Shown here: one piece after another, positions 12,063-12,749 of the stretch | Layout: every line of letters starts with the position of its first letter | Position numbering within the stretch: the stretch's first letter is position 1 | Assembly: GCA_035653615.1 (NCBI GenBank) | Contig: DASRBN010000037.1 | Location: forward strand, 63,736-127,735 | Reading direction: 5' to 3' | DNA: 64,000 bases | Source of the DNA: Ktedonobacteraceae bacterium | Lineage (GTDB): Bacteria; Chloroflexota; Ktedonobacteria; Ktedonobacterales; Ktedonobacteraceae | The notes under the pieces: model-generated | Told to the model about the DNA's origin: nothing | Database searches by the model: none | The model's input: the letters and a program-made list of their open reading frames with translations, nothing else | Program-made: the position numbers and the translations under genes

Positions 12063-12749
12063 ATGGCATTGATATCGCAACAAGATCAGGAATCGTTGAA
12101 AAAGGTTTTTGCTGAAGAATTGCCAAATGATGTGACAATTACCTACTTTACGCAGCGCGAGTCTGTCCTGTTTGTCCCAGGGCAGGAGAAGTGTGCGTAT
12201 TGCAAGGAAACAGGCGAGCTACTTGAAGAAGTCGCGAATCTTTCGGAAAAACTGCACCTGGACGTGAAGGATATCGCGGATAATAAGCAGGAGGCGCAGG
12301 AACTGGGCATTACGCGCGTTCCCGCGTTCGTGCTTTCGGGGCAGGCTAAAGGCAAGGTGCGTTACTTCGGCATTCCGGCAGGATACGAGTTCTCGACCCT
12401 GGTCGAATCACTGCTCGATGTCTCTCGCGGAAAGACAGAGTTGAGCGAACAAACGCGCAAGGCCCTGGCTGGGGTCGATTCAGACCTGCATATTCAGGTC
12501 TTTGTCACCCCTACCTGACCCTATTGTCCAAGAGCAGCCAGTTTGGCTCACAGATTAGCCGTTGAGAACGAGCATATTACCGCCGATGTGATAGAGGCAT
12601 CCGAGTTTATGGACCTCTCACAGCGTTACCACGTCCACGGTGTGCCCAAAACCATCATCAATGATCGCGTCGAGTTTACCGGAGCATTGCCGGAACCGCG
12701 CTTTGTCCAGCAGGTCTTGCAGGCGCTCGATCAAGAGACACAAAAATAA
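12063..12749 (+). CDS. Two-thioredoxin-fold disulfide oxidoreductase with in-frame TGA (probable selenocysteine)
   Basis: Read through one internal TGA, this is a 228-residue protein of the PDO / AhpF N-terminal-domain type, with two thioredoxin folds. Domain 1 has C44-A-Y-C47 and a cis-proline in R-V-P-A-F. Domain 2 begins I-Q-V-F-V-T-P-T, then TGA (12516-12518, codon 152), then P-Y-C155-P-R-A, and has the cis-proline segment H-G-V-P-K-T-I-I-N. Family members have CPYC here, so TGA exactly replaces the redox-active first cysteine codon and the frame after it is intact to 12749. The simplest reading is selenocysteine (U-P-Y-C). A nonsense mutation or sequencing error is the alternative, in which case the truncated product ends at residue 151. 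ATG 12063 follows GAGAGG. The protein likely reduces disulfides or peroxiredoxins in the cytoplasm. Confidence 0.7.
12516..12549 (+). other. Possible bacterial SECIS-like hairpin after the in-frame TGA
   Basis: Downstream of TGA 12516-12518, AGCC (12536-12539) and GGCT (12545-12548) can close a five-base loop AGTTT (12540-12544). An alternative is GAGC (12532-12535) with GCTC (12546-12549). The loop contains GU at about the distance seen in bacterial SECIS elements (about 20-25 bases after UGA), but the stem is short, so the evidence is modest. Confidence 0.35.

Follow-up and report, generated by a model that had tools for sequence, protein, structure and literature searches.

A PDO-type gene in a Ktedonobacteraceae bacterium with an in-frame UGA very probably decoded as selenocysteine

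Results

A two-thioredoxin-fold frame with a single internal TGA

The DNA analysed (the window, 64,000 nt of contig DASRBN010000037.1 from a Ktedonobacteraceae bacterium) carries at positions 12063–12749 of the plus strand a complete coding sequence for a protein disulfide oxidoreductase (PDO) of 228 residues, with its TGA taken as selenocysteine (Sec). The frame comprises 228 codons (12063–12746) and a TAA stop (12747–12749), and its sole internal stop is a TGA at 12516–12518, codon 152, followed by 76 sense codons before the TAA. In translation, the TGA falls between VFVTPT and PYCPRA (QVFVTPT, stop, PYCPRAAS), and the protein ends in QETQK. Retranslation reproduced the frame coordinates, the single TGA and the length of the tail given by an earlier sequence-only reading, and the homologue alignment confirmed its claim that the TGA falls on the first redox Cys of a CPYC motif, every Cys homologue and the PDOs of solved structure having at that position the Cys that opens CPYC, CPWC or CPHC. 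Sec152 thus opens a U-P-Y-C redox motif in the second thioredoxin fold, which is completed by the resolving Cys155 (TGT, 12525–12527). The redox motif of the N-terminal domain is C-A-Y-C (Cys44–Cys47, 12192–12203); Cys44, Cys47 and Cys155 are invariant in the alignment. Downstream of the TGA, at 12536–12548 of the same strand, lies a bacterial SECIS-like hairpin core, AGCC-AGUUU-GGCU, with 21 nt from the UGA to the apical loop. The neighbouring genes in the window encode LysE and a BNR-repeat protein, with no conserved redox neighbour, and no operon partner of the PDO was common to all loci compared. The read-through list for the window contained no convincing second TGA-interrupted gene with a redox motif, most entries being short tails past normal stops.

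The NCBIfam model TIGR02187 ('PDO_seleno_TRX') matched the protein with 269.2 bits (cut-off 185) over model positions 2–209 of 209, and phmmer matched residues 1–222 to the Pyrococcus furiosus PDO 1A8L (E 3e-45), upholding the assignment to PDO-type proteins that had been made from the letters of the DNA. The AlphaFold model (pLDDT 91.7) shows two thioredoxin folds and places UPYC between strand 142–148 and helix 155–168; the predicted model and the PDB matches agree on two folds with the sites Cys44/Cys47 and Sec152/Cys155, the columns of which are invariant. The best solved match of the predicted structure was 1A8L (TM 0.89, 38% identity), followed by P. horikoshii 1J08, Aquifex 2YWM and 2AYT, and then AhpF N-terminal domains. 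PfPDO (1A8L), PhGrx (1J08), AaPDO (2AYT) and ApPDO (2HLS) share with the window protein the two thioredoxin folds and two CxxC sites, at TM 0.80–0.90 and 29–38% identity to the window model. However, PfPDO and PhGrx contain Cys where the window protein has Sec, and all four originate from hyperthermophiles. The AhpF N-terminal domain (1ZYN, 5H29) has the same double thioredoxin-like fold (TM about 0.77–0.82) but is part of a flavoprotein and only 22–24% identical, whereas the window protein has no fused reductase. The link to AhpF N-terminal domains drawn in the initial reading was right, both the literature and the structural matches upholding it. Phage relatives appeared only as distant matches of <30% identity among the matches listed.

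A Sec form of the PDO family, which the name of the NCBIfam model also reflects, was published in 2006, where it is listed in Carboxydothermus and Symbiobacterium, and a 2024 report describes Sec PDOs in some Asgard archaea (PMC11227280). Like the window protein, the known Sec PDO family lies above the same model cut-off, has a motif of the UxxC type and has Cys homologues in other species. The known Sec PDO ABB15282.1 belongs to another lineage and is likened to the window protein through the family model. Among the papers searched, none was found to name Ktedonobacteria-like Chloroflexota or Acidobacteriota as carriers of a Sec PDO; for Sec in Thermogemmatispora the search returned no paper, and for Ktedonobacter incidental mentions only. 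Thus, of the initial proposal of a probable new selenoprotein, the selenoprotein part is supported, while novelty holds only for the member and its lineage: the gene is a further member, from another lineage, of a selenoprotein family known since 2006, and not a new family.

Recurrence of the TGA and selection on both sides of it

TGA stands at the same PDO codon in eleven genomes beyond the source genome, which belong to two phyla, Chloroflexota and Acidobacteriota (homologues L009, identical to G042 L046, L014, L015, L020, L026, L043, L044, L045, L053, L054 and L055; apart from those of the first five, the genomes are G001, G013, G015, G048, G052 and G060, L009 and G042 apparently being one genome). 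Codon 152 is likewise TGA in close relatives belonging to several genera, so the outcome that would have spoken against the initial proposal, TGC or TGT here in all close relatives, was not obtained. In comparisons with the four nearest relatives, dN was 0.20–0.33 before the TGA and 0.18–0.28 after it, with synonymous sites near saturation. The low dN/dS, alike on both sides, indicated that the part after the TGA has been kept as protein. Recurrence in eleven genomes and purifying selection past the TGA agree with the original argument that a random nonsense mutation is unlikely.

Selenocysteine machinery of the source genome and its relatives

The source genome (6.59 Mb, 95% complete) encodes all the Sec machinery searched for: a tRNA-Sec with the anticodon TCA (UCA) at 65.8 bits (gathering score 47), SelA at 577 bits, SelD at 381 bits, and SelB as one 676-aa frame (362 bits with neighbours, cut-off 242). 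The possibility, raised with the initial proposal, that the genome would lack such machinery altogether was thereby removed. Its own selD (L038; C33:206603–207526, minus strand) has a TGA at the active site (CAG-U-ASKMGPEAL), and for this reason the selenophosphate synthetase SelD is likely a second selenoprotein of this genome.

In a survey of 31 genome entries, one genome apparently being counted twice, tRNA-Sec was above the cut-off in every genome with a TGA-type PDO, and SelA was above its cut-off in all of these except G015 (76% complete; none) and G062 (a fragment). No tRNA-Sec above the cut-off was found in the six Micrarchaeota/Marsarchaeota genomes with a Cys-type PDO. Archaea use a route other than SelA, so the absence of SelA provides no test in these six.

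A SECIS-like hairpin at a fixed distance from the UGA

The published model of bacterial SECIS elements specifies an apical loop of 3–9 nt, a stem of 4–16 bp, a UGA-loop spacing of 16–37 nt, a G within the first two nucleotides of the loop, often as N-G-[G/U]-N-N, and an MFE of at most −7.5 kcal/mol (PMC13188914). The window hairpin, with the loop AGUUU, a 4-bp core stem and a spacing of 21 nt, fits this model. Its folding energy was −9.1 kcal/mol for a 55-nt and −6.8 kcal/mol for a 45-nt fold, and dinucleotide shuffles folded equally well, the window RNA alone showing no extra stability (z about 0). Compared with synonymous recodings of this single sequence, its energy was not significant (fraction 0.20), no Rfam match was found in 12400–12700, and in the 4-bp stem one pair varied, with covariation not beyond that of shuffles (185/500).

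The comparison among genes was more telling. The fixed-site hairpin is found in 9/9 TGA genes of one clade (the window gene, L009, L014, L015, L026, L043, L044, L045 and L053), all with a loop AG[G/U]NU at the same place, whereas synonymous recoding yields such a hairpin in 4–6% of cases for each, figures that are not to be multiplied since the rows are mutually related. The six Cys genes of Thermogemmatispora, the sister group, lack the fixed-site hairpin, and hairpins of the bacterial model at any site were present in 12/12 TGA rows versus 2/15 Cys rows. Codons seldom used in the window are retained in the loop: AGG makes up 11% of the window's Arg codons, AGT 9% of those for Ser and TTG 16% of those for Leu. 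Because the energy of the single sequence is near that of shuffles and Rfam gave no match, the assignment of a putative SECIS-like element 3′ of the UGA draws on the cross-gene comparison, which argues for it strongly, the window sequence alone arguing for it weakly.

Probable exchange of selenocysteine and cysteine within the family

On a 26-protein tree, the Sec/Cys label requires four changes, at least three of which are forced by well supported branches. The Thermogemmatispora PDO has Cys despite tRNA-Sec and SelA in the genome. L016 (TGC) and L020 (TGA) encode almost identical PDO proteins (dN 0.009 upstream of the codon and 0.006 downstream), and both genomes keep tRNA-Sec and SelA. Over 51 nt from the codon (L016:2240–2290, L020:3427–3477), two bases differ, one in the Sec/Cys codon and one in a synonymous CGC (L016)/CGA (L020) within the SECIS stem. 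As these segments differ only at the codon and the stem base, the sequences suggest that gain or loss of the hairpin went along with that of the Sec codon. L016 and L020 form a nearly clean natural pair for Sec/Cys exchange.

Close Sec forms of the PDO occur in L014, L015 and L026, Acidobacteria gp5 MAGs named after samples from 30–40 cm depth, apparently soil; a review describes PDOs as exclusive to thermophiles (PMC7465337). A Tepidibacillus decaturensis MAG has two tandem Cys-type PDO genes (L023:2287 and L023:2980). The Cys-type PDO of Thermogemmatispora (L010:1219–2760, L011:735–2764) is located downstream, on the same strand, of a rhodanese and a metallo-beta-lactamase/rhodanese fusion resembling persulfide dioxygenases, an arrangement that hints at a connection with sulfane sulfur metabolism in Thermogemmatispora; this neighbourhood was not seen around the window gene.

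Discussion

We conclude with high confidence that the gene encodes a 228-residue PDO of the TIGR02187 family, in which UGA152 would be decoded as Sec by the organism's own SelA, SelB, SelD and tRNA-Sec with the help of a downstream SECIS. A pseudogene, or a sequencing or assembly error, would require a nonsense change from TGC or TGT to TGA at the catalytic codon, a distance of one base, and Thermogemmatispora does have Cys there; nevertheless, this explanation is extremely improbable given the complete Sec machinery and is refuted by the recurrence of the TGA in eleven other genomes of two phyla and by the selection past it, independent assemblies with the same codon ruling out an error in sequencing. 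Insertion of another amino acid at the UGA, by near-cognate suppression or through a reassigned code, draws on the fact that a frame open across TGA does not by itself name the residue. This reading is also highly improbable: a tRNA-Sec with a TCA anticodon is present, the TGA occurs only at the Cys nucleophile in a classic Cys/Sec exchange, and a SECIS-like hairpin follows it. Reassignment of the code is ruled out by the normal use of TGA as a stop in the source genome, where it ends 16 of the 40 long ORFs of the window.

A further reading accepts Sec but supposes two products by design, a 151-residue N-terminal thioredoxin-fold form under low selenium and the complete selenoprotein under an ample supply. 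The UGA indeed comes after a complete first thioredoxin fold (elements 6–122 of the predicted model), so the short form would possibly be a folded domain with CAYC. However, truncated products of known selenoprotein genes are by-products, and the short form bears no sign of selection for it, which makes such a design unlikely.

For the selenoprotein itself, we propose that the UGA at codon 152 would be decoded as Sec under the guidance of the mRNA hairpin just downstream, that Sec152 would take the place of the nucleophilic Cys in the C-terminal CPYC motif, pairing with Cys155 as a selenenylsulfide, and that the N-terminal CAYC (Cys44, Cys47) would act as an ordinary thiol pair. In the Sulfolobus solfataricus PDO (SsPDO), thiol transfer takes place mainly at the C-terminal site (PMC7465337), isomerase activity requires both sites, and electrons pass from NADPH through thioredoxin reductase and the PDO to peroxiredoxins (PMC7465337; PMC7278568). 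By analogy with such archaeal PDOs, the window protein would most likely be a cytosolic disulfide reductase or relay that is reduced by the organism's own thioredoxin reductase and may in turn reduce peroxiredoxins or further disulfide substrates, and Sec would be expected to speed nucleophilic attack. As the genes flanking the PDO in the window offer no conserved redox candidate, we infer the redox partner from this analogy; a thioredoxin reductase above its family cut-off is encoded on the same contig of the source genome (G000 C37:368008–368904).

Ordinary annotation pipelines would call this PDO gene truncated or broken, although it would be an intact selenoenzyme gene. With this finding, Ktedonobacteria-like Chloroflexota and Acidobacteriota join a selenoprotein family that has been little studied. 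It appears fairly probable that in a Chloroflexota/Acidobacteriota lineage that includes soil bacteria the PDO became a Sec enzyme, and that Sec and Cys were exchanged several times at this one codon, the SECIS being gained or lost through synonymous changes. The relatives offer natural Sec/Cys pairs in which the contribution of Sec at this site, and the gain and loss of SECIS elements, may be measured.
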